Shown here piece after piece: positions 32,012-60,705 of a stretch of DNA of 64,000 nt. The DNA is from Salinibacterium xinjiangense. Its GTDB lineage: Bacteria > Actinomycetota > Actinomycetes > Actinomycetales > Microbacteriaceae. The first letter of the stretch is position 1. Every line of letters starts with the position of its first letter. Below the pieces are notes generated by a model. That model saw nothing but the letters and a program-made list of their open reading frames with translations, ran no database searches and was not told the origin of the DNA. The position numbers and the translations under genes were made by a program. The DNA lies in assembly GCF_014645015.1 (NCBI RefSeq), contig NZ_BMLC01000003.1, positions 59,109 to 123,108 of the forward strand, in the 5' to 3' direction.

Positions 32012-34189
32012 CTAGCGGCGTGGCTTCAGCCAGAGGCCGCCGAGGGGCGGAATGGTGAGTTCGACCGAGGCCGGTCGCCCCTGGAACGGCTCATCGAGGG
32101 CCTGCACCGAGCCGAAGTTGCCGACACCTGATCCACCGAAATCCTCGGCATCGGTGTTGATGACCTCGTCCCACGTTCCGGAGAACGGCAGCCCTATGCG
32201 GTACGGGCCGACGGGATTGCCGCCGAAGTTGAAGATCGCGACGAGCGGCTCGCCCGAGCGTGACCAGCGCACGAACGCGACCACGTTCTGTAGCGAGTTG
32301 CCGCCGTCGAGCCACTCGAACCCGGCGGCGTCATTGTCCTGTTCCCAGAGCGCCGGGCTCGCGGTGTACGTGTGGTTAAGGCCGGCGACCAGCTTCTGCA
32401 TCCCCTGGTGCATCGGCTGGTCGAGGATCCACCAGTCGAGACCGCGCTCCTCGCTCCATTCCGACGGCTGCCCGAACTCGCTGCCCATGAACAGCAGCTG
32501 CTTGCCGGGATGCGCCCACATGAACGCGAGGTAGACGCGCAGGTTGGCGAGTTTCTGCCAGTGGTCGCCGGGCATCTTGTGAAGCAGCGATCCCTTGCCA
32601 TGCACGACCTCGTCGTGGCTGATCGGCAGCAGGAAGCTCTCGCTGAACGCGTAGACGAGCCCGAAGGTCAGCAGATTGTGGTGGTACGAGCGGTTGATCG
32701 GGTCTTCCTGCATGTACCGCAGGGTGTCGTTCATCCACCCCATGTTCCATTTCATGCCATAACCGAGACCGGATGAGGTGGTCGGCTTCGTGACGCCGGG
32801 CCACGATGTCGACTCCTCGGCGATCATGATGATGCCGGGGTTGCGCTTGTAGGCCGTGGCGTTGACCTCCTGCAGGAATGCGATCGCCTCGAGGTTCTCA
32901 CGGCCGCCGTACTGGTTCGGCAACCACTGGCCTTCTTCGCGGGAGTAGTCGAGATAGAGCATGGATGCGACCGCATCGACCCGCAGGCCGTCGATGTGGA
33001 ACTCTTCGAGCCAGTACAGGGCGTTGGCGACCAGGAAATTGCGCACCTGCGAGTCGCCGAAGTTGAAGATCAGCGTGCCCCAGTCCATCTGCTCACCGCG
33101 GCGGGGGTCGCTGTGCTCATACAGGGATTCGCCGTCGAATTTCGCGAGCGCCCACTCGTCTTTCGGGAAGTGGCCGGGGACCCAGTCCATGATCACGCCG
33201 ATGCCGGCCTGGTGCAGGCAGTCGATGAGGTACTTCAGGTCGTCAGGATGCCCGAACCTGCTGGTGGGCGCGTAGTAGCCGGTCACCTGGTAACCCCAGG
33301 ATCCGCCGAATGGATGCTCCGCCAGCGGCATGAATTCGACGTGGGTGAAACCGAGCTGGGTCACGTAGTCGATGAGCTCGATGGCGAGGCTGCGATAGTC
33401 GAGCCCCGGACGCCACGATCCCACGTGCAGCTCGTACACGCTCATGGGAGCGTTCTGCGTGTCGGTGGACGCGCGTCGTGACATCCACGAGTCGTCTGCC
33501 CATTCGAACCGGCTCTGGCCGACCTTCGAGCCGGTGGCGGGCGACACCTCGGTGTAACGTGCCATCGGGTCGGCCCGGGTGACCCACTCTCCCTGCTGGG
33601 TCAGCAGCTCGAACTTATAGGTGTTTCCGGGCTGCAGGGCTGGGACGAATATCTCCCATACGCCGTTGTCGTCGAGACGGCGCATGGAGTGCCCGACACC
33701 GTTCCAGGAGTTGAAGTCACCGACCACGCGGACCGCCTTCGCGTGGGGAGCCCACACTGAGAAGCTCGTTCCGTCCACGCCTTCATGCGGGCGGAAATGG
33801 GCACCCAATACCTGCCACAGCTGCTCGTGTCGACCTTCGGCCCAGAGATACAGGTCCATCTCGCCGACCGACGAGACGAAACGGTATGGGTCGTCAGCTG
33901 ACCAGGCCGGTGCACCGTCATAGCTTGCTTCGACGTGGTACGCCAGTCCGGCTCCCGCAGCGTAACCCTGCCAGAGCCCATCGGCGACGTGGTCGAGCTC
34001 GACTCGCGATCCGTCACCACGCACCGCAGCGACAGTGGAGGCGAGCGGGCGCAGGGCGCGGATCACAAATCCATCCCCCACGGCGTGCTGGCCCAGGGTG
34101 TCGTGAGGCTGCGGGTGGCTTCCGCTGGCGATCGAGGCGATGAGTCCGGGGTGAAGCTCGGGAAGAGCGGGACTGGTGGTGTCAGCCAT
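32012..34189 (-). CDS. glgB: 1,4-alpha-glucan branching enzyme GlgB
   Basis: GH13 enzyme forming alpha-1,6 branches in glycogen. 725 residues: N-terminal CBM48-type domains (FSVWAPHAKAVRVVGDFNSW), (beta/alpha)8 barrel with VIMDWVPGHFPKD, nucleophile Asp in GLRVDAVASMLYLDYSR, acid Glu in IMIAEESTSWPGV and PISHDEVVHGKGSL, then a C-terminal beta domain. Its start overlaps the glgE stop (TAATG), so the maltosyltransferase and branching enzyme are coupled, as expected in the GlgE pathway. Confidence 0.97.
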   Translation of the reverse strand: MADTTSPALPELHPGLIASIASGSHPQPHDTLGQHAVGDGFVIRALRPLASTVAAVRGDGSRVELDHVADGLWQGYAAGAGLAYHVEASYDGAPAWSADDPYRFVSSVGEMDLYLWAEGRHEQLWQVLGAHFRPHEGVDGTSFSVWAPHAKAVRVVGDFNSWNGVGHSMRRLDDNGVWEIFVPALQPGNTYKFELLTQQGEWVTRADPMARYTEVSPATGSKVGQSRFEWADDSWMSRRASTDTQNAPMSVYELHVGSWRPGLDYRSLAIELIDYVTQLGFTHVEFMPLAEHPFGGSWGYQVTGYYAPTSRFGHPDDLKYLIDCLHQAGIGVIMDWVPGHFPKDEWALAKFDGESLYEHSDPRRGEQMDWGTLIFNFGDSQVRNFLVANALYWLEEFHIDGLRVDAVASMLYLDYSREEGQWLPNQYGGRENLEAIAFLQEVNATAYKRNPGIIMIAEESTSWPGVTKPTTSSGLGYGMKWNMGWMNDTLRYMQEDPINRSYHHNLLTFGLVYAFSESFLLPISHDEVVHGKGSLLHKMPGDHWQKLANLRVYLAFMWAHPGKQLLFMGSEFGQPSEWSEERGLDWWILDQPMHQGMQKLVAGLNHTYTASPALWEQDNDAAGFEWLDGGNSLQNVVAFVRWSRSGEPLVAIFNFGGNPVGPYRIGLPFSGTWDEVINTDAEDFGGSGVGNFGSVQALDEPFQGRPASVELTIPPLGGLWLKPRR

Positions 34190-36213
34190 TAGTTTCCTTT
34201 CGGGTACACGACGCGCAGGATATGCACAGGCTGGGTGAATGGATCGAGGCGCACGTAGTTGTCGCGGCCCCAGGTGAAGGTGTCGCCGGTGATGAGGTCG
34301 ACGACGTGGATGCGATCATCCGGTGCGAGGCCGAGGCGGGTCAGGTCAAGGTGCACCACGGTCTCCCGCACGGCGTGGGAATCGAGGTTGGCGACGATGA
34401 TCAGCCCGTCAGGGGAGCCGGAACCGGTGAACCTGGCGGGCAGGAACTTCGAGTACGCGATGATCGACTCATCGTCTGTCCACTGCACATCGAGGTTGCG
34501 CAGCTGCCTGAGTGACGGATGCGCCGCCCTGATCAGGTTGAGCCGGGTGAGGTAGGGCGCCAGGGTCGTGCCTGTCGCGTCGGCGGCAGCCCAGTCGCGC
34601 TGCTTGTACTCGTACTTCTCGTTATCGAGGTTCTCTTCGCTGCCGGGTCGAGCCACGTTCTCGACGAGTTCGTAACCCGCGTATACGCCCCAGGATGGTG
34701 ATGCGGTCGCCGCCAGCGCCGCACGCACCTTGTAGGCGCCTCGACCGCCGAACTGGAGGTATTCGGTGAGGATGTCGGGAGTATTGACAAAGAGGTTGGG
34801 GCGGAAGTAGTCCGCGGATTCCCGTGACAGCTCCTCGAAGTATTCCTCCAGCTCGACTTTCGTGTTGCGCCACGTGAAGTAGGTGTACGACTGCTGGAAA
34901 CCGGCACCGGCCAGGCCGCGCATCATGGCCGGACGAGTGAACGCCTCGGCGAGGAAGACGACCTCGGGGTGACGGTCGTAGATGACGCCCAGCAGCCATT
35001 CCCAGAACGCCAGCGGTTTCGTGTGCGGATTGTCGACGCGGAAGATGTGCACGCCGAGCGAGATCCAGTATTCGACGATGCGGAGTACCTCGACTCGGAT
35101 ACCTTCCGGATCGTTGTCGAAGTTCACGGGATAAATGTCCTGGTACTTCTTCGGAGGGTTCTCGGCGTACGCGATCGTGCCGTCGGGGAGGGTCGTGAAC
35201 CACTCGGGATGCTCGGTGACCCAGGGGTGGTCAGGTGAGCACTGGAGCGCGAGGTCGATCCCTACCTCGAGTCCGACCTTCCTCGCGGCGCCCAGGAAGA
35301 ACGTGAAGTCCTTGACGGTTCCCAGGTCGGGGTGGATGGCGTCGTGCCCCCCTGAGGTAGCGCCGATCGCCCAGGGCGAGCCGGGATCTTCGGGCCCGGC
35401 GTCGAGCGTGTTGTTCGGGCCCTTGCGGTTGGTGACACCGATGGGGTGGATGGGCGGCAGGTAGAGCACGTCGAAGCCCATGGCCGCCACCCCCGGCAGT
35501 CGCTTCGCGGCGGTGCGAAAAGTACCAGACACCCACGAGCCATTCTTTGCCTTCTTTGCGCCCTCGCTGCGGGGAAAGAACTCGTACCAGCTGCCGACCG
35601 CGGCCCTGGCACGCTCCACCCGGAGGGAAAGCACCTCGCTCACAGTGTCGAGGCTGGTCAGCGGCTTCGCGTTGATGGCTGTCACGATGGCGGGATCGGT
35701 GACGGCAGCGAGTCGGCCCTCGGGGGAGAGGGTGCTGTTTTTCAGCGACTGGCGAGCGTTGGTGAAGATTCTCTTCGATCCCGCGCGGGCGAGCAGCCGG
35801 TCCGCCATGGTGAACATGAGGTCAACATCCACTCCCGCCGGGATCTTCAGCTCGGCATTGTGTTGCCAGGTCTGCCAGTCGTCGGTGAACGCTCGGATGC
35901 GCCACGTCCATGTTCCGGGAGAAGTGAGCTGGGCATCCACTGTCCAGCCATCGGTGCCTGCTGCCATCGGAGCCATGCGGTGTACATGCTCGAGGCCGGT
36001 CGGATCCGTCAGCAGCAGCTGCACCCCGATCAGGTCGTGACCCTCGCGGAACACTGTCGCCGTGAAGGGCACCACCTCGCCGACGAAACTTTTCGCGGCC
36101 CAGCGGTTCTCGGGTTGTTGCGGTGAGAGATTGCGAATAGGGATGCGGCCGATGGCCGGCGTGCGGATGTCTGTGGCCGGCGAGACCACGCTGTCAGATT
36201 TTGTCTTTGCCAC
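34189..36213 (-). CDS. glgE: alpha-1,4-glucan:maltose-1-phosphate maltosyltransferase GlgE
   Basis: GH13_3 enzyme that extends alpha-1,4-glucan using maltose 1-phosphate. 674 residues: N-terminal beta domain, barrel with VLYLPPIHPIGVTNRKGPNN, EVGIDLALQCSPDHPW, nucleophile Asp in HIFRVDNPHTKPLAFWEW and acid Glu in VFLAEAFTRPAMM. GTG start with a TAACTT box 6 nt before it. The treS and pep2 genes that make maltose 1-phosphate are not in the window. Divergent from the SipW operon. Confidence 0.96.
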   Translation of the reverse strand: MAKTKSDSVVSPATDIRTPAIGRIPIRNLSPQQPENRWAAKSFVGEVVPFTATVFREGHDLIGVQLLLTDPTGLEHVHRMAPMAAGTDGWTVDAQLTSPGTWTWRIRAFTDDWQTWQHNAELKIPAGVDVDLMFTMADRLLARAGSKRIFTNARQSLKNSTLSPEGRLAAVTDPAIVTAINAKPLTSLDTVSEVLSLRVERARAAVGSWYEFFPRSEGAKKAKNGSWVSGTFRTAAKRLPGVAAMGFDVLYLPPIHPIGVTNRKGPNNTLDAGPEDPGSPWAIGATSGGHDAIHPDLGTVKDFTFFLGAARKVGLEVGIDLALQCSPDHPWVTEHPEWFTTLPDGTIAYAENPPKKYQDIYPVNFDNDPEGIRVEVLRIVEYWISLGVHIFRVDNPHTKPLAFWEWLLGVIYDRHPEVVFLAEAFTRPAMMRGLAGAGFQQSYTYFTWRNTKVELEEYFEELSRESADYFRPNLFVNTPDILTEYLQFGGRGAYKVRAALAATASPSWGVYAGYELVENVARPGSEENLDNEKYEYKQRDWAAADATGTTLAPYLTRLNLIRAAHPSLRQLRNLDVQWTDDESIIAYSKFLPARFTGSGSPDGLIIVANLDSHAVRETVVHLDLTRLGLAPDDRIHVVDLITGDTFTWGRDNYVRLDPFTQPVHILRVVYPKGN

Positions 36214-36311: not shown

Positions 36312-36332
36312 GGGGGACACGATTTGTCCCCC
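36312..36332. promoter_or_regulatory. palindromic operator candidate 1
   Basis: Perfect 7-bp arms GGGGGAC / GTCCCCC around a 7-bp centre (ACGATTT). Aligned base by base with operator 2, it begins exactly 30 bp upstream, about three helical turns, so two dimers would sit on one DNA face. Confidence 0.65.
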
Positions 36333-36341
36333 GTTTTGGGT

Positions 36342-36362
36342 GGGGTACAAAGCTTGTCCCCC
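36342..36362. promoter_or_regulatory. palindromic operator candidate 2, over the -35 box
   Basis: GGGGTACAA AGC TTGTCCCCC: 9-bp arms with one mismatch. Same 21-bp length as operator 1, with GGGG, ACA and TTGTCCCCC kept. Its right half contains the -35 hexamer of the SipW-operon promoter. Confidence 0.65.
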
Positions 36363-36383
36363 CTAGTGCCCACCCGATATATT
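36354..36383 (+). promoter_or_regulatory. promoter of the SipW/TasA-like operon
   Basis: -35 TTGTCC (36354-36359), 18-bp spacer, -10 TATATT (36378-36383). A run TTGTGGGGGG follows at about 36386-36394. The -35 lies inside operator 2, so the binding protein could block or replace sigma contacts. Confidence 0.55.
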
Positions 36384-36547
36384 TCTTGTGGGGGGAAGAG
36401 AGCTCAGTGTTTTGGGGCAACATTCTCGGCCTGACTCAGAGCAGGCAATTCATCGGATATCAACCAACCCGCCGCATACCAGGAACCTGGTGCGCGATCT
36501 CACACCAACACCTGGTGCCGTTTGTGGCGCCCTCGAAAGGAAACACA

Positions 36548-37153
36548 ATGAACAAGCTCGTCAAGGGTGCAGTGGCAACGGCCGCTGGTGTTGCACTGCT
36601 CATGGGTGGCGCCGGTACCTTCGCGTACTGGAACGACTCGGTCGGCATCACCGGTGGCACGATCACCGCCGGCAACCTGGTCGTCACCGACGCCACACCC
36701 ACGAGCGGCGTGTGGACGGTGTTGAAGAACGGTGTGGGAACCGCAACCACCATTACCAACATCGCGACCTTCGTGGCGTCACCCGGCGACAAGTTCACCT
36801 ACACGAAGAGCGTCACGATCACCGCGACCGGCGACAACCTGACCGCGACGCTCGCACTCGGCGCCGGATCGATTACTGCCGCTGGCACCGTTCCGACCGC
36901 AGCCAGCACGGCGCTCGCCGCCTACCTGACCAAGACGGCTGGCATCACCGCCATCGGCACGGGCGTCACCGCTGGTGCGGTTGCCGGCACTTACATCATC
37001 ACCCCCGGCACCGCAGGCGTGACCGCCCGCACCGTCGTTGTCTCCGTCGTGATCGAGTTCCCCAAGAACGCATTGGCGACCACCGTCGAGAACACCACGA
37101 AGCTCGGCTCCGTGACCCTCTCCGGCCTGAACGTCACGCTCGACCAGCAGTAG
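36548..37153 (+). CDS. SipW-dependent exported protein, TasA/camelysin-like
   Basis: 201 residues with an alternate-type signal peptide: MNKLVKGAVATAAGVALLMG then GAGTFAYWNDS and GGTITAGNLVV, the pattern of SipW-cleaved TasA-like proteins. The mature part is Thr/Ala/Gly-rich beta sequence with few charges, suitable for fibre assembly. ATG at 36548 has AAAGGAAA upstream; the longer frame from 36386 is discarded. First gene of the operon, 134 nt before the next, so probably the most expressed and the major subunit candidate. Extracellular. Confidence 0.82.
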   Translation: MNKLVKGAVATAAGVALLMGGAGTFAYWNDSVGITGGTITAGNLVVTDATPTSGVWTVLKNGVGTATTITNIATFVASPGDKFTYTKSVTITATGDNLTATLALGAGSITAAGTVPTAASTALAAYLTKTAGITAIGTGVTAGAVAGTYIITPGTAGVTARTVVVSVVIEFPKNALATTVENTTKLGSVTLSGLNVTLDQQ

Positions 37154-37287
37154 CCGCTCAGCTGTGGGCGTGCCGAACCCGAACCTCGGCACGCCCACGC
37201 TGACACCAGCACGAACACTCGTCATGATCCGGCCGACACGGCCCCTCCCAGCCTTCTGACCATCGGCTATCGAAAGCAGAGACCGCC

Positions 37288-37875
37288 ATGCCTCGAATCG
37301 CACAGACGCCCAGCGTCACTGCGTCGAGGCGTCGTCGGTCTCTTTTCAGTTTCTCGAACATCCTCAAGTCGATGGTCACCGTCACCGTCGCGATCTCGCT
37401 CTCGGTTTTCGCGGCGGGTGGCACGTACGCCTACCTCAACTCGAGCCGTCCCATCAGCGTCGGAACATCGGGGGGAACATCCGCCACGATCAACAGCGGA
37501 ACCTCCGGTCTCGTGGCCAGCACCAACACCATCGCATTCGCTGGCCTGTATCCCGGCGTCACCCAGACCGCCGATTTCAGCGCATCTGCATCAGGATCCG
37601 CTGACCTGATCCTGAGCGTCACGTCCATCACGGGCCAGGGTGCCAACGGGCTCACCATCACAGTCGCACCGGGTACGTGTGCAGCCCCCGGAACTGCCAT
37701 TGTCGTCGGATCGCTCGGCGTCAAGGCCGTCGCCGCGACGACCTACGACGCCGTAATCACGCCGGCCTCTACGGTGCAGTTGTGTCTCGTCGTCAGCATG
37801 CTGGCAAACGCACCCGCCAGCGCCGCCGGAACCACCACTGCGATTCTGGTCAACCTCCAGGGAGACCAGCCGTGA
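37288..37875 (+). CDS. SipW-dependent-type exported protein 2
   Basis: 195 residues. A basic N-terminus (SRRRRSLFSFSNILK), hydrophobic helix and FAAGGTYAYLNSS give the SipW-type signal, like the preceding protein. The mature part is Gly/Thr/Ala/Ser-rich beta sequence with two Cys (GTCAAPG, VQLCLVV) that may form a disulfide. Probably a minor structural subunit of the same surface assembly. Its stop overlaps the next start by one base. Confidence 0.75.
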   Translation: MPRIAQTPSVTASRRRRSLFSFSNILKSMVTVTVAISLSVFAAGGTYAYLNSSRPISVGTSGGTSATINSGTSGLVASTNTIAFAGLYPGVTQTADFSASASGSADLILSVTSITGQGANGLTITVAPGTCAAPGTAIVVGSLGVKAVAATTYDAVITPASTVQLCLVVSMLANAPASAAGTTTAILVNLQGDQP

Positions 37876-38591
37876 TGCGCCAGCGGCTGGCCATCGCGAT
37901 CGTCGTGGCCGCAGGCGCCATACTCGGGGCAGGAATACCTGTCGCCGCGACGGCTGCCGCGCCCACCGTCGAATACAGCCGTGATGGTGGGCTGACGTGG
38001 TCGGCGGCTCCGCCGTCGTTCCTGTTCTCGTCGTCAATGCGGCTCGTTCCCGGTGACGCCATGACCGAGAACGTGCTCATCCGATCACTGCGTGCTGACC
38101 CGACGCTCATGCAGTTATCGCTCGCCAATGCGACAACCGCCAGCGCGCTTCTCGAATCGGCGCTCACAGTCGAGGGAGCCGATGCCGCCGGCGCAGGGCT
38201 CACACCGACAACGCTGGACGCGTTGACCACGTGCCAGACCGTCGTACCCGACCGTGTGCTGGCCCAGGGCGAGATCGTGTCTGTCTCCCTGACGATGCGC
38301 GTATCGTCTTCGCTCACGGGGCAGGAGGCGCAGGACTCGATAGGTTATTTCGACCTGGCGCTGGCCATGTCTGATCCCGGCACGGCGATCGCTCCCAACG
38401 GTTGTGCGGTGAACGCCGTGCTCATTCCGGGCACGGGTGAAGGGCAGGACACCCCGCGCTCTATCCCAGCGGGCCTTGCGTACACCGGGACGACCCTGGC
38501 ATATCCTGCAATCATCACCACCCTGGTTAGCCTCGGCGTCGGAGGGTTGTTCGTGCTGATAGGTCGGCGGCGAGGGAGGGAAAGCGAATGA
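37875..38591 (+). CDS. exported protein with LAYTG sortase-type anchor
   Basis: 238 residues. Conventional Sec signal (MRQRLAIAIVVAAGAILGAG, cleavage near ATA-AA). The C-terminus is LAYTG at 201-205, a hydrophobic stretch (PAIITTLVSLGVGGLFVLIG) and RRRGRE, the layout of a cell-wall sorting signal; LAxTG is the motif known for class E sortases of high-G+C Gram-positives. Two Cys (TTCQT, NGCAV). It may fix the fibre to peptidoglycan, a role TapA has in Bacillus; this is inference. Overlaps both neighbours, so tightly coupled. Confidence 0.75.
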   Translation: MRQRLAIAIVVAAGAILGAGIPVAATAAAPTVEYSRDGGLTWSAAPPSFLFSSSMRLVPGDAMTENVLIRSLRADPTLMQLSLANATTASALLESALTVEGADAAGAGLTPTTLDALTTCQTVVPDRVLAQGEIVSVSLTMRVSSSLTGQEAQDSIGYFDLALAMSDPGTAIAPNGCAVNAVLIPGTGEGQDTPRSIPAGLAYTGTTLAYPAIITTLVSLGVGGLFVLIGRRRGRESE

Positions 38592-39688
38592 CGTCACGAA
38601 AGCCGGCGCGGTCACGCAACCTCGGACGTTTATCGCGCCTTCCCGGATGGCGCCCCGCGGCGGTCATCGGGCTGGCGATATTCCTCATCGCAACCGGGAC
38701 CCTGGCCGGGAATGCATACTGGTCTGCTGTCGTCTCGAGGTCGGCGACGGTCACCGCAGCGACGCCCGCAACCACAACTTCCGGTATCGATGGGCTTACC
38801 GCCACGTATAAGCAGGGGCTCACCTTAGGCGGCTCCGTGGTGATCTCTGCTCCGTTGCTTGCCGACACGGCGCCGATCACGATCACAAATACCGGCTCTA
38901 CCCCGCTGAATTACTCGGTGTCGGTGTCTGGCGGTGACGCCGCGGTGACTCTCCTGCTCTGGAAGCGGGGTGCGACCTGCGACGCTGGCACCGTTCCGGC
39001 GGCCGGGGCGACCACGGGGACGTTGTTGGCACCACCGGTGATGCCGGCAGATGCCACCTCGGCCGCTGCAGGCGTAAGCCTTCTGCTGTGTGCGCGCACG
39101 ATCCTGACCAGTACCTTCGCTGATGCCGCCGGCGTCACGATCACACCGACAATGACCTTTACCGGCAGGGTCGGTGACAACTGGAGTGTAGGGAGTGGAA
39201 CCGCATTCACCCAGACCGCGACGCATAGCTGGTTCAGGATCAAGCACAGCTTCAGCGGGAAATGTTTCGATGCCAATGGCGCACCTCTCGTGCTGGGTAC
39301 GACGATGGTCCTGTTCCCCTGCAAGTTGCCCGACAAGACAGATAACCAATCGTTCAGGTTCGAACCCGTAGGCAGCCAGTTCCGCATCTACATCGGCAAT
39401 GGAACCGGCATCGGGCCGGTCGTAGCACCCACCGTCGATACCCAGAACGCGCAGGTGCAACTCGTCGCGAAGACGACGACGACCGGAGCTCTGTTGAACC
39501 GACAACTGTGGAATGTGGTGGCGAACGGCGCGGCCGGTGACTACCGACTGGTCAACCAGCAGACCGGCCTATGCCTGACCATGAACAATTCGAATGATCT
39601 CACGGTGTTTGTGATGACGACATGCTCCTCGAATTCCGGCACTAACGAATACCGCGCAGAGCACTACAGCTTTGTCGAAATACCCTGA
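38588..39688 (+). CDS. SipW-type exported protein with ricin-B-like lectin domain
   Basis: 366 residues. Basic N-terminus, hydrophobic helix AAVIGLAIFLIATGTLAG and NAYWSAVVSRSATVTA give a SipW-type signal. Residues about 60-210 are TasA-like beta sequence. The last 150 residues fit a beta-trefoil: FRIKHSFSGKCFDANG, FRFEPVG and YRLVNQQTGLCLTMNN, i.e. repeated (I/L)xNxxSGxCL units with QxW-like positions. A sugar-binding tip adhesin is plausible. ATGA overlap with the LAYTG gene. Confidence 0.75.
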   Translation: MTSRKPARSRNLGRLSRLPGWRPAAVIGLAIFLIATGTLAGNAYWSAVVSRSATVTAATPATTTSGIDGLTATYKQGLTLGGSVVISAPLLADTAPITITNTGSTPLNYSVSVSGGDAAVTLLLWKRGATCDAGTVPAAGATTGTLLAPPVMPADATSAAAGVSLLLCARTILTSTFADAAGVTITPTMTFTGRVGDNWSVGSGTAFTQTATHSWFRIKHSFSGKCFDANGAPLVLGTTMVLFPCKLPDKTDNQSFRFEPVGSQFRIYIGNGTGIGPVVAPTVDTQNAQVQLVAKTTTTGALLNRQLWNVVANGAAGDYRLVNQQTGLCLTMNNSNDLTVFVMTTCSSNSGTNEYRAEHYSFVEIP

Positions 39689-39759
39689 TTCGTTGGGATA
39701 CCCGATGGTGATGATCGTGCAATATCATTCAACCGGAGTGGCTGATCCGGGGGAGTCGT

Positions 39760-40548
39760 ATGGCACCGCCTAGGCACAGGGCCGCAGCAGGTCGCACCGG
39801 CATGCGCCCCGCCGGCACGGGCTTCGGCAGCAGGGCTGCCGGCAGAGGCTCGGGGGAGATCGGGATTCCGAAGGAGAAGGGGCTACTCCAGTATCTAGGC
39901 CTCGCGCTCAGCGGCGCCTTTCTGGTGTTGGTGCTGGCTGTAGCGGTTCTCGTTATCGCGCTCCCGCTGATCTCCGGCGGTGCCGCGCTGACCGTTCTCA
40001 CTAATTCGATGGCACCGAAGTTCCCGCCCGGCACGCTCATCATCATCAAGCCGACCCCGATCGCCGACATCAGGGTCGGCGATGTGCTGACCTACCAGAT
40101 CACCTCTGGTGACCCTGCCGTGATCTCCCACCGGGTCATCACTCGCAGTGTGAGTCTCGAGGGCGAGACGACGTTCATCACGAAGGGCGACAATAACGAT
40201 CTGGCCGATCCGAAGCCCATCAGTGAATTGCGGGTGAAGGGCACCCTCTGGTACGCGATCCCGTACCTCGGCTTCGTCAACAATGCCGTGAACGGCGAGG
40301 CCCGCCTGCTGGTGACCCCGATCATCGCCGGGCTCCTGTTCGCATATGCGGTATACACGGTGATCTCGAGTATCGCGGGTCGCCGGAAGAAGCTCGCGGC
40401 GGCGGCGGCGGCAGCGGCGGCGGCGGCAGCCGACGCAGGCGGGCCTGATGCGCAGCTGCCGGCAGCACTGGTCGAGGCGCGAGCTCCGGGTCGGAGCAGC
40501 TCCGAACAACACGAACCCGAACAGCTCGACCCCGACCTCTCCCACTGA
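39760..40548 (+). CDS. sipW: signal peptidase I, SipW (ER/archaeal) type
   Basis: 262-residue membrane protease. Nucleophile Ser in LTVLTNSMAPKFPPG and His in AVISHRVITRS replaces the Lys of normal LepB, the hallmark of ER-type/SipW signal peptidases; ITKGDNNDLADP is the third box. N-terminal helix FLVLVLAVAVLVIALPLI and a second helix near 190-205. The C-terminus holds an Ala tract encoded by (GCG/GCA)n at 40397-40432. It closes the operon whose three other products have SipW-type signals, so they are probably its substrates. Confidence 0.9.
   Translation: MAPPRHRAAAGRTGMRPAGTGFGSRAAGRGSGEIGIPKEKGLLQYLGLALSGAFLVLVLAVAVLVIALPLISGGAALTVLTNSMAPKFPPGTLIIIKPTPIADIRVGDVLTYQITSGDPAVISHRVITRSVSLEGETTFITKGDNNDLADPKPISELRVKGTLWYAIPYLGFVNNAVNGEARLLVTPIIAGLLFAYAVYTVISSIAGRRKKLAAAAAAAAAAAADAGGPDAQLPAALVEARAPGRSSSEQHEPEQLDPDLSH
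40397..40432 (+). repeat. GCG/GCA trinucleotide repeat (poly-Ala)
   Basis: About eleven Ala codons in a row inside the cytoplasmic tail of the SipW-type peptidase. In-frame and length-variable repeats of this kind are tolerated. Confidence 0.8.
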
Positions 40549-40610: not shown

Positions 40611-43166
40611 GTGAAGGCAATCAGACGGTTTACGGTTCGCACGGTTCTCCCGCAAGCGCTTGCGGGCCTGGAGGAGCTTGCGTCCAATCTGCGATGGTCG
40701 TGGCACGAGCCGACCCGCCAGTTCTTTCGAGCGATCGACCCGGTGCTGTGGGATGAGACGGGGCACGATCCGATCCGGATGCTCGGAGCCGTCGAACCCA
40801 CCAGGCTGCACGAGCTCGCGGTCGACGAGGATTTCGTGGGCACCGCGACCTTTCTGTTAGACGGGTTGCACCAGTACCTGCGCGAGCCGCGCTGGTACCA
40901 GCAGCTCGAGGGAGCGCCTGCATCCATCGCCTATTTCTCACCCGAATACGGGATTGCCGCAGCGCTACCGCAGTACTCCGGTGGGCTCGGTATTCTTGCC
41001 GGCGACCACCTGAAGAGCGCCTCAGACCTCGGTGTACCGATCATCGGTGTCGGGCTCTTCTATCGCGCGGGGTACTTCCGCCAAGGCATCTCGCGTGAGG
41101 GTTGGCAGCAGGAGAGCTATCCGGTGCTCGACCCCGACGGCCTCCCCTTGCGGGTGCTCAGGCAGCCGGACGGCCAGCCAGCCAGGGTGACCCTCGCGCT
41201 ACCGGACGGCCAGGGTCTCTCGGCGATCGTCTGGGTGGCGCAGGTCGGACGCATCCCGCTGCTGCTGCTTGATACCGACATCGCTGAGAACAGCGACGAC
41301 CTGCGCTCTGTCACCGATCGCCTCTATGGCGGAGGGGGTGAGCACCGGCTCCTACAGGAGTTGCTGCTCGGCATCGGCGGCGTTCGCGCCATCGGCCTCT
41401 ACACCGAACTCACCGGTACGCCGCTGCCCGAAGTGTTCCACACCAACGAGGGTCACGCCGGTTTTCAGGCGCTCGAGCGCATCAGCGACCTGATCGGTGA
41501 GGGTCTTGGTTTCGCGGATGCCCTGCAGGCCGTTCGCGCCGGAACCGTCTTCACCACCCACACGCCGGTTCCCGCTGGCATCGACCGTTTCCCCGTCGAC
41601 ATGATCGACAGGTACTTCTCGACCGACCTGCTTCCCGGCGTCGCCTCGGCGGATGTGCTCGCCCTCGGCACTGAGAACTTCGATGGCGGTGATCAGGGAA
41701 TGTTCAACATGGCCGTAATGGGTCTCAGGCTCGCACAACGCGCCAACGGGGTCTCAAAGCTGCACGGCGAGGTGTCGCGCGGAATGTTCGGTGCCCTGTG
41801 GCCCGGATTTGACAACGCAGACGTGCCGATCACCTCCGTCACCAACGGTGTGCATGCGCCGACGTGGACGGATCCGCAGATGCTGGAGCTCGCCCAGAAG
41901 AGGTTCGGCACCGTCGACACGACAGCTGTCGACTGGTCGTCACAGGCCGTCACCGACAGTGACCTGTGGGAGGTGCGGGGCCGGATGCGCGCGCAGCTGG
42001 TCGCGGACGCGCGCCGACGCACCGCCGAGGCCTGGCACGAGCAGAACCCCGGTGTGGGCGCCCCTGCATGGTTCTCGGGGCTGCTCGATCCGTCAGTGCT
42101 GACGATCGGATTTGCGCGCCGCGTTCCGACCTACAAGCGCCTCACCCTGATGCTGCACGATCCTGAGCGGCTGCGCGCGCTTCTGCTCCACCCAGAGCGA
42201 CCTGTGCAACTCGTGATCGCCGGCAAGTCGCATCCGGCAGACGATGAAGGCAAGCGACTCATCCAGAAGCTCGTCGAGTTCAGCCAGGACCCCGAGGTCC
42301 GCCAGCGCATCGTGTTCCTTCCGAACTACGACATCGCGATGGCGAAGCTGCTGTACCCGGGAACCGATATTTGGCTAAACAACCCGTTGCGCCCCCTGGA
42401 AGCGTGCGGCACATCCGGCATGAAGGCAGCCCTGAACGGGTCTCTCAACCTGTCGATTCTCGATGGCTGGTGGGCTGAGTTCTACGACGAAGAGAATGGC
42501 TGGGCGATCCCCTCCGCTGACTCCGCAGGCGACGGTGCTGAGCGCGACGAGGTGGAGGCGAACAGCATGTACGACCTCATCGAGCACCAGATCGCTCCCA
42601 GGTTCTACGACCGCCGGGCCGACGGAGTGCCCTCCCGCTGGGTGGACGGGATACGCCACACCCTCGCCACGCTGTCGCCCGCGCTGTCGGCCGACCGCAT
42701 GGTGCGTGAATACGTCGAGCGGCTCTACGTTCCGGCGGCGGACGCAGCCCGCGTAATCAGCGCAAACGCCTACCAGCCGGCCAGGGAGCTCGCGGCCTGG
42801 AAATCGCGGGTCATTGCGGCGTGGCCGAAGGTGCATGTCACCCACGTCGAATCAGGCGGAGTCGACACTGTGCCCCAGGTCGGTGACGAGCTGCACCTGC
42901 GTGCCACCGTCGACATCGACGGGCTGGATGCCAGTGACCTCAGCGTCGACGTCGTCTACGGCCGCGCTCGCGACGGTGACATGCTCGAGAACGTCGAGCA
43001 GGCGCCACTCGAACTGATGCCGTCGTCGCCCGGTCAGCCGAAGGTATTCGGCGGGACTGTTCCGCTGTCGCGTGCCGGAAGTTTCGGCTACACCGTCCGG
43101 GTCGTGCCGCGGCATCCGCTGCTGGCGTCGCCATCTGAGCTGGGGCTGATCGCGGTAGCCGAATAG
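40611..43166 (+). CDS. glgP: alpha-glucan (glycogen/maltodextrin) phosphorylase
   Basis: 851 residues. Releases glucose 1-phosphate from alpha-glucan ends. Belongs to the shorter GT35 group with N-terminus RTVLPQALAGLEELASNLRW. Markers: IAYFSPEYGIAAALPQYSGG, EVFHTNEGHAGFQALERI, FTTHTPVPAGIDRFP and the pyridoxal-phosphate Lys region CGTSGMKAALNG. A C-terminal beta extension follows. Leaderless GTG start. Convergent with ybaK. Confidence 0.95.
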   Translation: MKAIRRFTVRTVLPQALAGLEELASNLRWSWHEPTRQFFRAIDPVLWDETGHDPIRMLGAVEPTRLHELAVDEDFVGTATFLLDGLHQYLREPRWYQQLEGAPASIAYFSPEYGIAAALPQYSGGLGILAGDHLKSASDLGVPIIGVGLFYRAGYFRQGISREGWQQESYPVLDPDGLPLRVLRQPDGQPARVTLALPDGQGLSAIVWVAQVGRIPLLLLDTDIAENSDDLRSVTDRLYGGGGEHRLLQELLLGIGGVRAIGLYTELTGTPLPEVFHTNEGHAGFQALERISDLIGEGLGFADALQAVRAGTVFTTHTPVPAGIDRFPVDMIDRYFSTDLLPGVASADVLALGTENFDGGDQGMFNMAVMGLRLAQRANGVSKLHGEVSRGMFGALWPGFDNADVPITSVTNGVHAPTWTDPQMLELAQKRFGTVDTTAVDWSSQAVTDSDLWEVRGRMRAQLVADARRRTAEAWHEQNPGVGAPAWFSGLLDPSVLTIGFARRVPTYKRLTLMLHDPERLRALLLHPERPVQLVIAGKSHPADDEGKRLIQKLVEFSQDPEVRQRIVFLPNYDIAMAKLLYPGTDIWLNNPLRPLEACGTSGMKAALNGSLNLSILDGWWAEFYDEENGWAIPSADSAGDGAERDEVEANSMYDLIEHQIAPRFYDRRADGVPSRWVDGIRHTLATLSPALSADRMVREYVERLYVPAADAARVISANAYQPARELAAWKSRVIAAWPKVHVTHVESGGVDTVPQVGDELHLRATVDIDGLDASDLSVDVVYGRARDGDMLENVEQAPLELMPSSPGQPKVFGGTVPLSRAGSFGYTVRVVPRHPLLASPSELGLIAVAE

Positions 43167-43203
43167 CCAACTAGCGGATCGTTGTCGGCCGAAACCGCAG
43201 GAT

Positions 43204-43677
43204 CTATGAGCGACCGATGGCTGCCACCACCGCACCGGTGGCAGCCCGAAGGTCGTGCGGTGTGAGCTCGATGTCGAAGCCGCGGCGCCCACCAGAGACG
43301 AATACCGTGTCATAGAGTTCGGCGGTCTCGTCGAGCACCGTAGGGTTCACGGTCTTCTGCCCGATCGGGCTGATCCCGCCGACCACGTACCCGGTCCGTC
43401 GTTCGGCGAGCCTCGGGTCGGCCATACTCGCCTTCCTGCCAGCGACCGCGGCGGCAAGGGCCTTCAGATCGAGCGTGCCCGAAACCGGGACGATCGCCAC
43501 GACCAGCCGGCCGTCGACATCCGCCACCAGCGTCTTGAACACCTGCCCGGGATCGAGCCCGAGCACGGTTGCAGCCTCCAGTCCGAAATTGGTATTGCCC
43601 GGGTCGTGATCGTATTCGTACTCCACGAACGGGATACCCGCCGCGGTGAGCGCGACAGTTGCCGGCGTACCGCCCAT
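43204..43677 (-). CDS. ybaK: Cys-tRNA(Pro)/Cys-tRNA(Cys) deacylase YbaK
   Basis: 157-residue editing hydrolase that clears Cys mischarged on tRNA(Pro). Family sequence: FGLEAATVLGLDPGQVFKTL, LVVAIVPVSGTLDLKALA, YVVGGISPIGQK and FVSGGRRGFDIELTP. 3 nt after the glgX stop on the same strand, so cotranscribed with it although the functions differ. Confidence 0.93.
   Translation of the reverse strand: MGGTPATVALTAAGIPFVEYEYDHDPGNTNFGLEAATVLGLDPGQVFKTLVADVDGRLVVAIVPVSGTLDLKALAAAVAGRKASMADPRLAERRTGYVVGGISPIGQKTVNPTVLDETAELYDTVFVSGGRRGFDIELTPHDLRAATGAVVAAIGRS
43219..43246. terminator. hairpin at the 3' end of ybaK, downstream of glgP
   Basis: Perfect 10-bp arms GGCTGCCACC / GGTGGCAGCC with an 8-nt loop, 53 nt after the glgP stop but inside the last ybaK codons. 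Could end glgP transcripts. Confidence 0.4.
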
Positions 43678-43680
43678 CGT

Positions 43681-45729
43681 TCAGTGTGCCCTGAACAGCT
43701 GCATCGAGGTGCCAGCGACGATCAGATCATCACCCGGCACGTGCTCTGTCATCCACTCCGTCGCATCCTCGACCGCGGAATCCCACAGCAGTGTGTACCC
43801 GCTGACGCCGGCGTGATCCGGCAGCGTGACAGTCACATCGTCTTCGAGGCCGTGCACGATGAGCAGGATTCGATTGAGCTCCTCGAATTCGGGCGTCGAC
43901 GCGGCGAGGTACTGCAGGGTGCGTTCGGCGGGGGAATCCCAGTCCTTCTCAGACATCGACAGGCCCTCCTTGTTGTACCAGTCCATCTGGGTTGCCGACG
44001 GGATGGTTTCACCCGCGATCCCGTAGCGTCCGGGTCGGAGTGCCGGATTGTCGCGGCGGAACTCGATGAGCTGTCGAGCCACCTCGAGCAGATCGTCCTG
44101 CCAGCCCTCACGCTCCCACGGCAACCAGGTCAGCTCGCTGTCCTGGTTGTAGGCGTTGTTGTTGCCGCGCTGGGTGCGGCCGAATTCGTCGCCAGCGGTG
44201 AGCATCGGGATGCCGGCCGACAGCAGCAGGGTGCCGAGCAGGTTGCGCATGGCTTTGTACCGTGCATCCCGGATCTCGTCGTCGTCGGTGGTTCCTTCTG
44301 CGCCGTAGTTGAACGAGTGGTTGTTGTCTGTGCCGTCCCGGTTCTTCTCGCCGTTGCCGAGGTTGTGCTTCTCGTTGTAGGCGGTGAGGTCGGCCATGGT
44401 GAATCCGTCGTGAGCCGTGATGAAGTTGACCGACGCCATGGGCCCGCGGTCGAGTGCAAACACGTGCGCTGAGCCCGCCAGGCGGCGTGCGAGCGAGCCG
44501 ATGCCGTTCGGGGCAGAACCCGTGGCCCGCGCGGTGCCGATGTCTGTCAGCCAGAAGTCCCGCATACGGTCGCGATAGCCGTCGTTCCACTCGCTCCACC
44601 CAGCGGGGAACCTTCCGACCTGCCAGCCGCCCATTCCCACATCCCAGGGCTCGGAGATGATCTTGACCCCGGCAAGCTGCGGGTCGTCCCGGATGGCGAG
44701 CAGCAGCGGATGCTCCGGGTCGAATTCGTTTCCCTCGTCGCGACCGAGAGTGGCGGCAAGGTCGAAGCGAAATCCGTCGATCTGCACGTCATTGGCCCAG
44801 TAGCGCAGCGAATCGAGGATGAGGCGCTGGGCGGCGGGCGTCGCGGTGTTGACCGAGTTACCACAGCCCGTCACATCCACATAGGTGCCATCGGTCGTCT
44901 GCCGGTAGTAGTTCCTGTTGTCGAGGCCACGAAGGCTCGTCGTCGGGCCCGTGCGGCCTTCCTCGGCCGTGTGGTTGTAGACCACGTCGAGCACGACCTC
45001 GAGCCCGGCCTCGTGCAGGAGCTTGACCATGCCTTTGAACTCTCGCAGCACGGCGCCGGTTCCTCCGTGCTGCGCCTCGCGGCTTGCGTATGCCGCGTGG
45101 GGGGTGAAGAAGTTGAGAGTGTTGTAGCCCCAGTAGTTGGTGAGCCCCTGCTTGATCAGGCGCTGCTCACTCACGAACTGCTGCACGGGCAGCAACTCGA
45201 TGGTCGTGACGCCAAGATCCTTCAGGTACGCGATCGTCGACTCGTGTGCGAGCCCCGCGTAGGTTCCGCGGAGGTGCTCCGGAACATGGGGATTCAGTTT
45301 CGAGATGCCTTTGGCGTGTGCCTCGTACATCACCGTGTGGTCCATGCCGATCTGCGGCTTGGTCGACTGTCCCCAGTCGAAGGTGTCTGGTTCCTGGACG
45401 TATCCGCGCCAGTCGCCGCTCTTCGTGCGATCGAGCCCGCGTGCGTAAGGATCGATCAGGTGCAGGTCGGGATCGAACGCGTGCCCGGCGCTGGTGGGGC
45501 CGGTAGCCCGCACCGAGTAGCGCACACCCGGTCTCAGATCGGTGGATGATACTGACCACACGTCGGCGTCGTCGCGGTGCAGCGGTAGCCGTTTTGCGAT
45601 CCAGTTGGCGTCCCGTTCATCGAAGAGACACAGCTCCATAGCGGTGGCACTCGCGGACCAGATTCGCAGCTCGCCGCCCTTTGGGCTAAGGGTGACGCCG
45701 AGGTCGGCAAGGAAATCGGCTTCGGGCAT
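43681..45729 (-). CDS. glgX: glycogen debranching enzyme GlgX
   Basis: GH13_11 isoamylase-type enzyme cutting alpha-1,6 branches. 682 residues: CBM48-type N-terminus (ELRIWSASATAMELCLFDE), barrel with LDVVYNHTAEEGRTGPT, nucleophile region VQIDGFRFDLAATLGR, acid Glu in KIISEPWDVGMGGWQVG and FITAHDGFTMADL. A TACTCT box 7 nt before the ATG suggests a leaderless message. Works with glgP on the same polymer. Confidence 0.96.
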   Translation of the reverse strand: MPEADFLADLGVTLSPKGGELRIWSASATAMELCLFDERDANWIAKRLPLHRDDADVWSVSSTDLRPGVRYSVRATGPTSAGHAFDPDLHLIDPYARGLDRTKSGDWRGYVQEPDTFDWGQSTKPQIGMDHTVMYEAHAKGISKLNPHVPEHLRGTYAGLAHESTIAYLKDLGVTTIELLPVQQFVSEQRLIKQGLTNYWGYNTLNFFTPHAAYASREAQHGGTGAVLREFKGMVKLLHEAGLEVVLDVVYNHTAEEGRTGPTTSLRGLDNRNYYRQTTDGTYVDVTGCGNSVNTATPAAQRLILDSLRYWANDVQIDGFRFDLAATLGRDEGNEFDPEHPLLLAIRDDPQLAGVKIISEPWDVGMGGWQVGRFPAGWSEWNDGYRDRMRDFWLTDIGTARATGSAPNGIGSLARRLAGSAHVFALDRGPMASVNFITAHDGFTMADLTAYNEKHNLGNGEKNRDGTDNNHSFNYGAEGTTDDDEIRDARYKAMRNLLGTLLLSAGIPMLTAGDEFGRTQRGNNNAYNQDSELTWLPWEREGWQDDLLEVARQLIEFRRDNPALRPGRYGIAGETIPSATQMDWYNKEGLSMSEKDWDSPAERTLQYLAASTPEFEELNRILLIVHGLEDDVTVTLPDHAGVSGYTLLWDSAVEDATEWMTEHVPGDDLIVAGTSMQLFRAH

Positions 45730-50946: not shown

Positions 50947-52545
50947 GTGCTGGTAGACGTTGCGGCCTTGACCTCGGTGGCACTGGGACCTGTCGCCGAG
51001 GCGTTCGAGGTGCACGAAATCTCGCGGTACTCGACAGTGCAGTCGTCGGTGACGATGCGGATCGACATCCTCCCGGCCGAACGCTCGGGCTCCGGTCGAA
51101 CTGGGGAGTCCCTGGTGTCGCGGCCGATCGACGCATCGACCCTGGCCATCGTTCCGGCTGTCCAGCCAGGCCCGGTCATCGGGCCGCAACCCGGCACGCA
51201 GCCGCACAGGCAGGTGCAGAGCATGCGTACGCTCAAAGAACTCACGCTCCTCAGCGGCCCCGACATCTCGCGGTTTGTCGCGGCCCATCCCCATGCCGTC
51301 AGCTCCCTGCTCGCCAGCCCGCCGCCGCCTCGTGATGTCACTCTCTGGTGGTCGACGCTCGGCGCGCGAGCCAGGTCGACCCTCGGAAGCTCCGCTCCTC
51401 AACTGATCGGCAATCTCGAGGGCATCCCCTTGTCGGTGAGGGATGGCGCCAACCGCACCATGCTCCACTCGACCATCGATTCTCTTGATCGACTCGTCTC
51501 CAGCGGCGCTGGCCGGTCGGTCATCGAGAACGCAAAGCAGCAATTGAAGATGCTCCGGTCGATTTCTGATGCGCTGGATGGCGTCGAGGCGGCGGACCTG
51601 TCGACCGTTACCTCGGTGGCCACGCAGACCTGTGACCTCGGCGAGGCCACTCGCACCCTGCTCACTCTCGACGTGGCCGGCCAGGGCCGCGCCGCGATTG
51701 TGCTCGGTGATCTCACTACGGCCGACTACGTCTCGTTCCTGGTGCCCGGCATGTTCTTCACCATCGAGAACCAGATGGGGGCGTGGGCAGAAGCGGCCGA
51801 CGAGCTTTATGAGCAGCAGCTCGACTGGTTGGACTACTTCGACTCGAAGTCCGGGGCGTCGCGAGTCCAGGCGGCCTCAGACCAGTCCGTGCCCGAGCAG
51901 AAGACCGTGCCCGAGCAGAAGACCGTGCCGGGGCAGAAGACCGTGCCCGAGCAGAAGTCCGTGCCGGAGCAGAAGACCGTGGCCACGGTGGCGTGGATCG
52001 GCTACCACACGCCCAACCTCACGAACGTGGGCGGCATCCAGAATGCCGATGAGGGCAGGGATGCGCTCGCCTCCGCGATCAAGGGACTTCAGGCGCTGCG
52101 CACTTCTGACGAGCCATACGTAACGGTGATCGCGCACTCTTATGGGTCGACCGCTGCGCTGATGGCCCTCACGGAATACGACTTCGAGGTGGATGCCCTC
52201 GCGCTGGTGGGATCACCGGGAAGCCCGGCCAGGTCGGTAGACGAACTGCACGTGCGTAGCGGCAACGTCTACGTGGGCGAGGGCGCGTGGGATCCGATTC
52301 CCAACAGCTCCTACTTCGGCAGCGACCCGGGCGCCGCGAGCTACGGTGCGAAGCAGATGAGTGTCGCCGGCGGGAATGATTCGATCACGGGGGGCCCGCT
52401 GCTCGCGTCCAATGGTCACAATGAGTACTTCAGCCCGGGGACAGAGTCGATGCGCAATTTCGCTCTGATCTCGATCGGCAAGGGACAGTTCGTCAGCGGA
52501 GGCAGCCCGGTCGTCCTGGCGAAGGCATCCGGTCCCTCCAAATAG
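50947..52545 (+). CDS. DUF1023 alpha/beta hydrolase
   Basis: 532 residues with a C-terminal alpha/beta hydrolase domain of the actinobacterial DUF1023 family: VAWIGYHTPNL, VTVIAHSYGSTAALMAL (nucleophile Ser in HSYGS), ALALVGSPGSPA, and His candidate in SNGHNEYFSPG. The N-terminal 300 residues are helical and of unknown role. Just before the hydrolase domain is a 5-copy VPEQKT repeat. No clear signal peptide. GTG start, weakly supported; a downstream start is possible. Substrate unknown. Confidence 0.78.
   Translation: MLVDVAALTSVALGPVAEAFEVHEISRYSTVQSSVTMRIDILPAERSGSGRTGESLVSRPIDASTLAIVPAVQPGPVIGPQPGTQPHRQVQSMRTLKELTLLSGPDISRFVAAHPHAVSSLLASPPPPRDVTLWWSTLGARARSTLGSSAPQLIGNLEGIPLSVRDGANRTMLHSTIDSLDRLVSSGAGRSVIENAKQQLKMLRSISDALDGVEAADLSTVTSVATQTCDLGEATRTLLTLDVAGQGRAAIVLGDLTTADYVSFLVPGMFFTIENQMGAWAEAADELYEQQLDWLDYFDSKSGASRVQAASDQSVPEQKTVPEQKTVPGQKTVPEQKSVPEQKTVATVAWIGYHTPNLTNVGGIQNADEGRDALASAIKGLQALRTSDEPYVTVIAHSYGSTAALMALTEYDFEVDALALVGSPGSPARSVDELHVRSGNVYVGEGAWDPIPNSSYFGSDPGAASYGAKQMSVAGGNDSITGGPLLASNGHNEYFSPGTESMRNFALISIGKGQFVSGGSPVVLAKASGPSK
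51889..51978 (+). repeat. 18-bp in-frame tandem repeat, 5 copies (VPEQKT)
   Basis: Five units GTGCCCGAGCAGAAGACC with few base changes encode VPEQKT, VPEQKT, VPGQKT, VPEQKS, VPEQKT. Near identity at DNA level means recent expansion; it forms a hydrophilic linker ahead of the hydrolase domain. Confidence 0.95.
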
Positions 52546-60228: not shown

Positions 60229-60705
60229 GAGGCAATTCTGTCAGATTAGAACATCAATCTGAATAGTGCTCAGATAGTGGTGGAAAAGTCGTGGACAGGT
60301 CGCCTGTGAAGGAGAAGGCGGCCACTGGGCAGCCTGACCCGTATGACCAGCAAAGGGATCCTCGCACCAGCCAGCCAGCCAGCCAGCCAGCCAGCAATCA
60401 ACCAACCCGGCAGCCAGCCAGCAATCAACCCGGCAGCCAGCCAGCCAGCCAGCAAGCAACCAACCCGGCCGCCAGCCAACCGACCCGGCAGCCAACCGAC
60501 CAGCCATCCAGCCAACCCGGCAACCAACCAACCCGGCAACCGGGACCAACCAACCAACCAACCAACCCGGCAACCGGGACCAACCAGCCAACCAACCAGC
60601 CAGCCAACCAGCCAGCCAGCCAGCCAACCAACCCAGCCAACGTTGATGAGTCCCGGTGCTGGAGCACCACCGCGAAGTCGCGCGCGCCAGCGGGTTAGCC
60701 CGGCG
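60229..60705. other. 477-bp gap holding the tetranucleotide repeat
   Basis: Between the DUF222 start and the ABC permease stop, both on the minus strand. Apart from the repeat tract it has a possible DUF222 promoter (TAATCT on the minus strand near 60247). No conserved gene: several frames are open only because of the repeat. Confidence 0.55.
60363..60641. repeat. imperfect 4-bp repeat tract (CCAG/CCAA)n
   Basis: About 280 bp of CAGC/CAAC tetranucleotides broken by CCGG, CGGGAC and similar pieces. With period 4, translation repeats every 12 nt, so several frames stay open: plus strand reads SQPASQPANQPT, minus strand reads GWLAGWLVGWLA. Looks like a slipped-strand-generated microsatellite, not coding. 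Confidence 0.9.

Follow-up and report, generated by a model that had tools for sequence, protein, structure and literature searches.

A conserved SipW/TasA-type locus for putative surface proteins, with a variable lectin-bearing member, in Salinibacterium xinjiangense and related actinobacteria

We analysed a stretch of 64,000 nucleotides from Salinibacterium xinjiangense (Microbacteriaceae; assembly GCF_014645015.1, contig NZ_BMLC01000003.1, positions 59,109 to 123,108), here called the window, which carries a SipW/TasA-type locus of five neighbouring genes, A to E, at 36548–40548 on the plus strand (Table 1). The genome comprises 3.02 Mb in 9 contigs. Every gene of the locus is open at its assigned start. 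A sequence-only reading, made from the letters without database searches, had described five genes on one strand, three of them with overlapping ends, and this layout was confirmed: B and C overlap by 1 nucleotide and C and D by 4, with gaps of 134 nucleotides between A and B and 71 between D and E.

Table 1. Genes of the locus and features around it (positions in the window)
Feature	Position	Strand	Description
Gene A	36548..37153	+	SipW-type signal; TIGR04089 protein; candidate main subunit
Gene B	37288..37875	+	SipW-type signal; camelysin/TasA-related; conserved Cys pair (C131, C166)
Gene C	37875..38591	+	Ordinary Sec-type signal; predicted beta-sandwich of immunoglobulin-like (Ig-like) type; LAYTG as sorting signal, followed by membrane helix and Arg-rich tail
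Gene D	38588..39688	+	SipW-type signal; N-terminal domain like that of B; ricin-type beta-trefoil lectin at the C-terminus; candidate for an exchangeable adhesin
Gene E	39760..40548	+	SipW/archaeal-type Ser/His signal peptidase with Ala-rich tail
Two tandem palindromes, GGGGGACA-N5-TGTCCCCC and GGGGTACA-N5-TGTCCCCC	36312..36362		Starts 30 nucleotides apart; candidate for an operator or a promoter element
Sigma-70-like promoter match, 9/12	36354..36383	+	Consensus match only; overlaps the second palindrome
Presumed glgB and glgE	32012..36213	-	Flanking genes
Presumed glgP (+), ybaK-like (-) and glgX (-)	40611..45729		Flanking genes

The products of A, B and D carry SipW-type signals. A scored 32.9 bits against the SipW-signal model TIGR04088 (cut-off 19), being the only protein to pass this cut-off in the whole-genome search, and 123.6 bits against NCBIfam TIGR04089 (exp_by_SipW_III; curated cut-off 60). 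B, C and D of the window gave no match to TIGR04089 and B and D none to TIGR04088; the assignment of B and D was made from orthologue alignments. A26 and W28 are kept in all 56 A orthologues, A43 and W45 in 72 and 71 of the 73 D orthologues, and A48 in 46 of the 49 B orthologues, in which position 50 is L in 23, W in 20, F in 3 and M, I or S in one each. In the C orthologues the site is of the ordinary AxA type, with A25 kept in 37 of 44 and A27 in 36. The conserved residues thus assign A, B and D to one signal class and C to another.

E scored 84.6 bits against TIGR02228, the model of archaeal/SipW-type signal peptidases (cut-off 51.85), and its Ser83 and His124, which we take to be the catalytic pair, are invariant in all 11 aligned proteins. 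As a query against the genome E found itself as the single match, and a single LepB-type peptidase over the Pfam cut-off is encoded at about 9580–10332 of the window. The three SipW-type signals and the Ser/His peptidase at 39760 predicted by the sequence-only reading were therefore both borne out, while the release of the assembly by its own peptidase, also proposed there, is better described as probable signal removal by SipW. TasA, with an aromatic residue at P2', is reportedly cut poorly by Escherichia coli LepB, according to the available text of PMC10269814. A GCG-rich tract at 40396–40430 encodes the Ala-rich tail of E, which is not found in the other 10 aligned E proteins.

Scanning of named genomes with the E alignment detected 335 relatives, and the loci of the best 80 of these were labelled with models from the first alignments, the window included, and their gene order was read upstream of E. 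These 80 are the closest relatives of E, and the shares of gene patterns among them are not representative of all 335. The order A-B-D-C-E was detected in 40 loci, A-B-D-E in 22, A-B-C-E in 4, E alone in 4 and A-B-E in 3, and seven patterns occur once each. Three of the four lone E genes stand at a contig end; one lone-E locus, L049, has no other locus genes in 18 kb. The best 80 include loci of Salinibacterium, Herbiconiux, Cryobacterium, Frigoribacterium, Microbacterium, Curtobacterium, Frondihabitans, Agreia, Demequina, Rarobacter, Gordonia and Williamsia, and A-B-D-E is the pattern of all 11 Curtobacterium loci and of 8 of the 10 Microbacterium loci.

The neighbourhood was also examined in 150 genomes of the family, a set in which at least four of the best 80 loci occur as well. 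TIGR04089 was over its cut-off in 67 of these genomes, and E was present at 140 bits or more in 65, all of which also have A. Counted over A matches above the cut-off (10 weaker ones left out) and E matches of at least 140 bits, an E was found on the same strand at a distance of no more than 7 kb for 81 of 85 A genes, and an A near 71 of 74 E genes. Relatives of B were found in 12 of the 150 genomes, the window's own genome counted; in the 11 others A and B are always adjacent, and E stands alongside in 10. In the remaining one (L020) E would lie beyond the contig end and D was not labelled, and C was not labelled in two others (L019, L022). When genomes were drawn from the whole class, 37 of 296 matched the C profile at an E-value of 1e-5 or less, many of these matches being short and to the anchor part. 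Joint conservation of the neighbours, whose absence the sequence-only reading had named as one of several refuting results, was thus detected (81 of 85 A genes near E; 40 of 80 loci A-B-D-C-E) and speaks for a SipW/TasA-type locus in an actinobacterium. A search for the same five-gene order had been suggested there as a check: the five genes recur together, and the window's own order, A-B-C-D-E, was seen in none of the best 80 loci. In the comparison with its nearest relative, L035 (Salinibacterium sp. G-O1), more than half of the nucleotide differences in A, B, C and E fall on codon position 3, which together with the conserved neighbours indicates that the locus is more than a chance arrangement.

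Two kinds of unusual loci were noticed. In L024 (genome G048) a full set stands in tandem with another A, B, D-like gene and C, and a single E lies between the two sets. The Williamsia and Gordonia loci L094, L106 and L086 carry A, one gene resembling B or D, and E, and downstream of these another B-like gene and a weak second E-like match; they are possibly a shorter relative of the system.

The C protein of the window carries the features of LAxTG sortase substrates, i.e., the motif, a membrane helix and a basic tail, in a genome that encodes a class E sortase. The LAVTG-anchor model gave 25.4 bits in the protein scan, under the cut-off of 27, and 29.6 in the genome search; the motif, helix and Arg-rich end agree with the LAYTG-anchored protein at 37875 proposed from the letters. 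Four sortase matches were detected in the genome, three over the Pfam cut-off and one under it, all outside the window. Typing covered the three over the cut-off: one is of class E (226.8 bits; class cut-off 160), and the second and third are nearest to class F and class E, respectively, both below the class cut-offs. Class E sortases reportedly act on LAxTG signals (available text of PMC5148588).

A hydrophobic stretch (mean hydropathy above 1.6) followed by basic residues closes 49 of the 51 C frames from the named loci, the exceptions being L105 and a truncated piece in L067. A motif [LIVM][APGSV]x[ST]G precedes the hydrophobic stretch in 29 of the 51, in the form LAx[ST]G in 12 of these, the VSNTG of L113 being a doubtful case; no sorting motif was found before the helix in the other 22, which include the truncated piece and L104, where LPRTG can be recognised by eye. 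NCBIfam anchor models matched 18, 9 and 5 of 44 C proteins, in sets that may overlap. Surface retention is thus the predicted rule where C exists, and sortase attachment is not. The proposed sortase-fixed base accordingly fits the window, with its LAYTG and class E sortase, and does not extend to the system in general, given the frames lacking a motif and the 22 loci of the A-B-D-E type.

The D protein differs from its neighbours in its divergence. L035 has the order A-B-D-C-E, and its proteins are 71.9 (A), 72.3 (B), 62.0 (C) and 76.4 (E) percent identical to those of the window, against 32.5 percent for D. In its N-terminal part, the D of the window resembles those of L056 (44%) and L073 (41%) more than that of L035 (35%) among 66 D proteins compared. 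In the pairs L047/L107 and L107/L114, E is 82% and A 89–90% identical, compared to 30–34% for the N-terminal and 22–28% for the C-terminal part of D; in other close pairs (L062/L071, L047/L114) D is as alike as the neighbour genes. Pairs with E 55–95% identical were drawn from 42 complete loci and, as they have loci in common, are not independent of each other; D fell below A, B, C and E in identity in its C-terminal part in 95 of 122 pairs and in its N-terminal part in 59 of 127.

The lectin-bearing member proposed by the sequence-only reading was recovered, since D of the window is over the cut-offs of two Pfam models of ricin-type lectins (PF14200, 38.1, cut-off 25.6; PF00652, 35.8, cut-off 29). 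PF14200 was detected in 25 of 73 D proteins (24 with a local model) and FN3 in 12 of them. In a quick tree built from 67 E proteins, 21 of them from loci with a lectin-type D and 46 from loci without, the lectin trait changes at least 12 times, or at least 11 times once one very long branch is removed. The divergence of D and the turnover of the lectin were read as exchange of D as a cassette. Beyond the earlier reading, the locus is widespread, the C/D order of the window is exceptional, and D appears to be the part that is exchanged.

Profile comparison linked B to the N-terminal domain of D (98.5%) and to C (95.3%). Camelysin (PF12389) matched 26 of 49 B relatives at an E-value of 0.01 or less (best 7.6e-8), 10 of 56 A relatives and none of 44 C relatives; the BsaA-family model matched 11 and the TasA model 5 of the 49 B relatives. 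The TasA-like subunits that had been suggested are therefore supported, as related to TasA and camelysin, at the level of relatives. Compared to 177,635 PDB sequences, a 49-row B profile found AbpX first (E-values 0.0056 and 0.0071), then TasA (0.016 and 0.019) and sialidases (0.038); a 13-row A profile had three weak matches and the C profile nothing useful. AlphaFold2 models were obtained for A (mean predicted local distance difference test, pLDDT, 83.9; predicted template modelling score, pTM, 0.75) and C (85.7 and 0.71). Residues 23–30 of the A model, at the expected cleavage site, have pLDDT below 50, as a free strand would, and parts of the signal are also low; such model values prove nothing about a free strand. 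Foldseek placed the TasA fibre as the first match of A (E-value 0.051, probability 0.51, template modelling score, TM, 0.32). For C, 13 matches were under 0.001; after the first five came CooA (4.4e-4) and the Pyrobaculum bundling pilus 7ueg (7.2e-4), with the TasA fibre at rank 16 (1.1e-3, TM 0.32) and CfaB at 1.3e-3. The matches of C include donor-strand pilins. These results speak, short of proof, for a sandwich of Ig-like type in C and for a TasA-type relationship of the group.

With modest confidence we favour the hypothesis that the product of the locus is a surface filament, processed by SipW and belonging to the TasA/camelysin superfamily, with an anchored C and an exchangeable adhesin D. 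Directly in its favour are the composition of the locus, the conserved neighbours, the signal types, the anchor signal, the links of the B relatives to known families and the divergence of D, which is unusual. A, B and D would be exported with their SipW-type signals and E would remove these, freeing an N-terminal segment that starts with A-x-W/L. The freed segment may act as a donor strand that completes the beta-sandwich of the neighbour subunit; TasA subunits are reportedly joined by donor-strand exchange (available text of PMC9674648). C would be the base of the filament, as first acceptor or nucleator, because it has an ordinary signal and no A-x-W/L N-terminus, and LAYTG and the membrane helix would keep it at the surface. 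D could join via its B-like domain and display its C-terminal module, here a ricin-type lectin and elsewhere an FN3-like or other module, and swapping of D between strains as a cassette would alter what the filament binds. Polymerisation and donor-strand exchange, like polarity, adhesion, matrix function and a lectin tip, are what we infer from the genes. It is a tentative idea, which we regard as somewhat doubtful, that the system is a Gram-positive counterpart of chaperone-usher pili that does without chaperone, usher and pilin sortase. In it SipW would free the donor strands of A, B and D, the subunits would assemble by donor-strand exchange on the anchored C as base, and strains would swap D, a tip or side adhesin, without changing the rest of the filament.

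Several results weigh against the filament hypothesis. The profile match between A and B (97.6%) is confined to the signal and the beginning of the chain, and A was rejected as a relative of C, the profile comparison giving no match. The window's own A and B are below the Pfam camelysin cut-off; a 13-row B profile found TasA first at only 0.084 and 0.091, and a 56-row A profile had no match among the PDB sequences up to an E-value of 10. The TasA fold match of A is weak, in a Foldseek search of A with no match under 0.001, and the five best fold matches of C are other proteins (AvmM, glycosidases), many of its matches being generic Ig-like folds of varied functions with TM to the query of 0.22–0.35. 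C was not labelled in the 22 A-B-D-E loci.

The weak TasA fold match of A, the mixing of TasA with generic Ig-like folds for C, the A profile without a PDB sequence match and the A-B-D-E loci also favour the explanation that A to D are SipW-dependent surface proteins without a fibre, forming a coat or a small wall adhesin complex for which SipW is needed only to process the odd signal. We consider it unlikely: the B relatives match models of reportedly polymerising matrix proteins (BsaA and TasA), and BsaA polymers reportedly form independently of the neighbouring sortase gene (available text of PMC7395162).

Another explanation is a matrix that binds glucan of the cell itself, the lectin of D binding exported alpha-glucan, since the locus lies within a glgB-glgE / glgP-glgX neighbourhood. 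From their sequences we presume these flanks (Table 1) to be glycogen/GlgE-pathway genes. Relatives of the glg-type flanks were found on both sides of 22 of the 80 loci and on one side of 5, and the neighbourhood accompanies 13 of 21 lectin-type D genes compared to 12 of 45 others (66 rows, Fisher p 0.013). This coincidence is lost on the tree (median p 1 for the 5 independent pairs that lie on starred branches, which are too few to reach 0.05), so it was not relied on, and 53 of the 80 loci, all 22 of the A-B-D-E type included, have no glg-type genes in the stretch examined. We consider the glucan explanation quite improbable. Two loci under the window's own genus code (L015, L016) have no glg-type genes around them and a C without sorting motif; they differ from the window in both respects, so that one genus code contains two versions. 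A sortase-polymerised SpaA-type pilus cluster, for which the one LAxTG protein at the locus and the class E sortase in the genome could be cited, was rejected as extremely improbable, with all four genomic sortase matches outside the window, no class C sortase in the cluster (none of the three typed matches passes the class C cut-off) and no sorting signal on A, B or D.

The SipW-processed filament that we favour resembles several known systems. As in the Bacillus subtilis tapA-sipW-tasA operon, a dedicated SipW adjoins subunits with SipW-type signals, camelysin/TasA models match the B relatives and the first fold match of A is, weakly, the TasA fibre; the window locus differs in that three of its proteins have SipW-type signals, that an anchored protein exported by an ordinary signal is added and that one member bears a lectin or FN3 module, and the NCBIfam and Pfam scans of the five proteins gave no TapA match. 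The sipW-tasA/calY locus of Bacillus cereus with CapP is alike in its two camelysin-type subunits, SipW and a wall-associated accessory protein. According to the available text of PMC13082335, that system is sortase-independent and CapP is processed by SipW, whereas C of the window has an ordinary signal, and a sorting motif is present in part of the loci. Clostridium perfringens sipW-bsaABCRSD also combines SipW with a polymer, BsaA, whose model matches 11 of 49 B relatives; its operon differs in containing two-component genes, in placing SipW first and in a BsaA without LPXTG, and the available text of PMC7395162 mentions no lectin or anchored member.

A is a member of TIGR04089, a model whose title states no function and to which B, C and D do not belong. 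Archaeal AbpX and bundling pili are alike as the first PDB match of the B profile and as a fold match of C (7ueg), with modest E-values, and the substrates of class E sortases, e.g., chaplins (available text of PMC5148588), share the LAxTG motif and the class E sortase in the genome. Our literature search, covering titles and abstract openings with most subscription journals outside its coverage, found no publication on this locus, and an actinobacterial locus of this kind is not described in the available text of PMC9674648, PMC13082335, PMC7395162, PMC10151520, PMC7766987, PMC5148588 and PMC10269814. If the locus makes a filament, many actinobacteria would have an unstudied matrix or adhesion filament, and the locus would directly test whether filaments of the SipW type, like Gram-negative pili, can be attached to the cell and bear adhesins that change.

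The two tandem palindromes upstream of A are a candidate operator or promoter element, as judged from the sequence. Within the window they give 4 match rows, one per strand for each of the two sites, compared to 0.21 expected. Genome-wide with up to 1 mismatch they were found only at these two sites, and both are kept in L035. In 19 of 75 upstream regions of A, the window and L035 included, a GGGTACAA..TGTnC-like element is conspicuous against a background of mononucleotide shuffles only and among related species; a role of the palindromes as a general operator is not claimed on this basis. The Rfam scan of the window at gathering scores gave zero RNA-element matches.

Repeats were detected elsewhere in the window. 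A 13-bp repeat stands at its start (1–108) in 8.3 perfect copies, and tandem repeats with unit lengths divisible by three are located at 51887–51981 (18 bp, 5.3 copies) and 55951–56072 (27 bp, 4.5 copies). A long low-complexity CCAG/ACCAGCCA array extends over 60366–60641, and the open frame at 60291–60698 that spans it encodes Gln-Pro-Ala-Ser-rich repeats.

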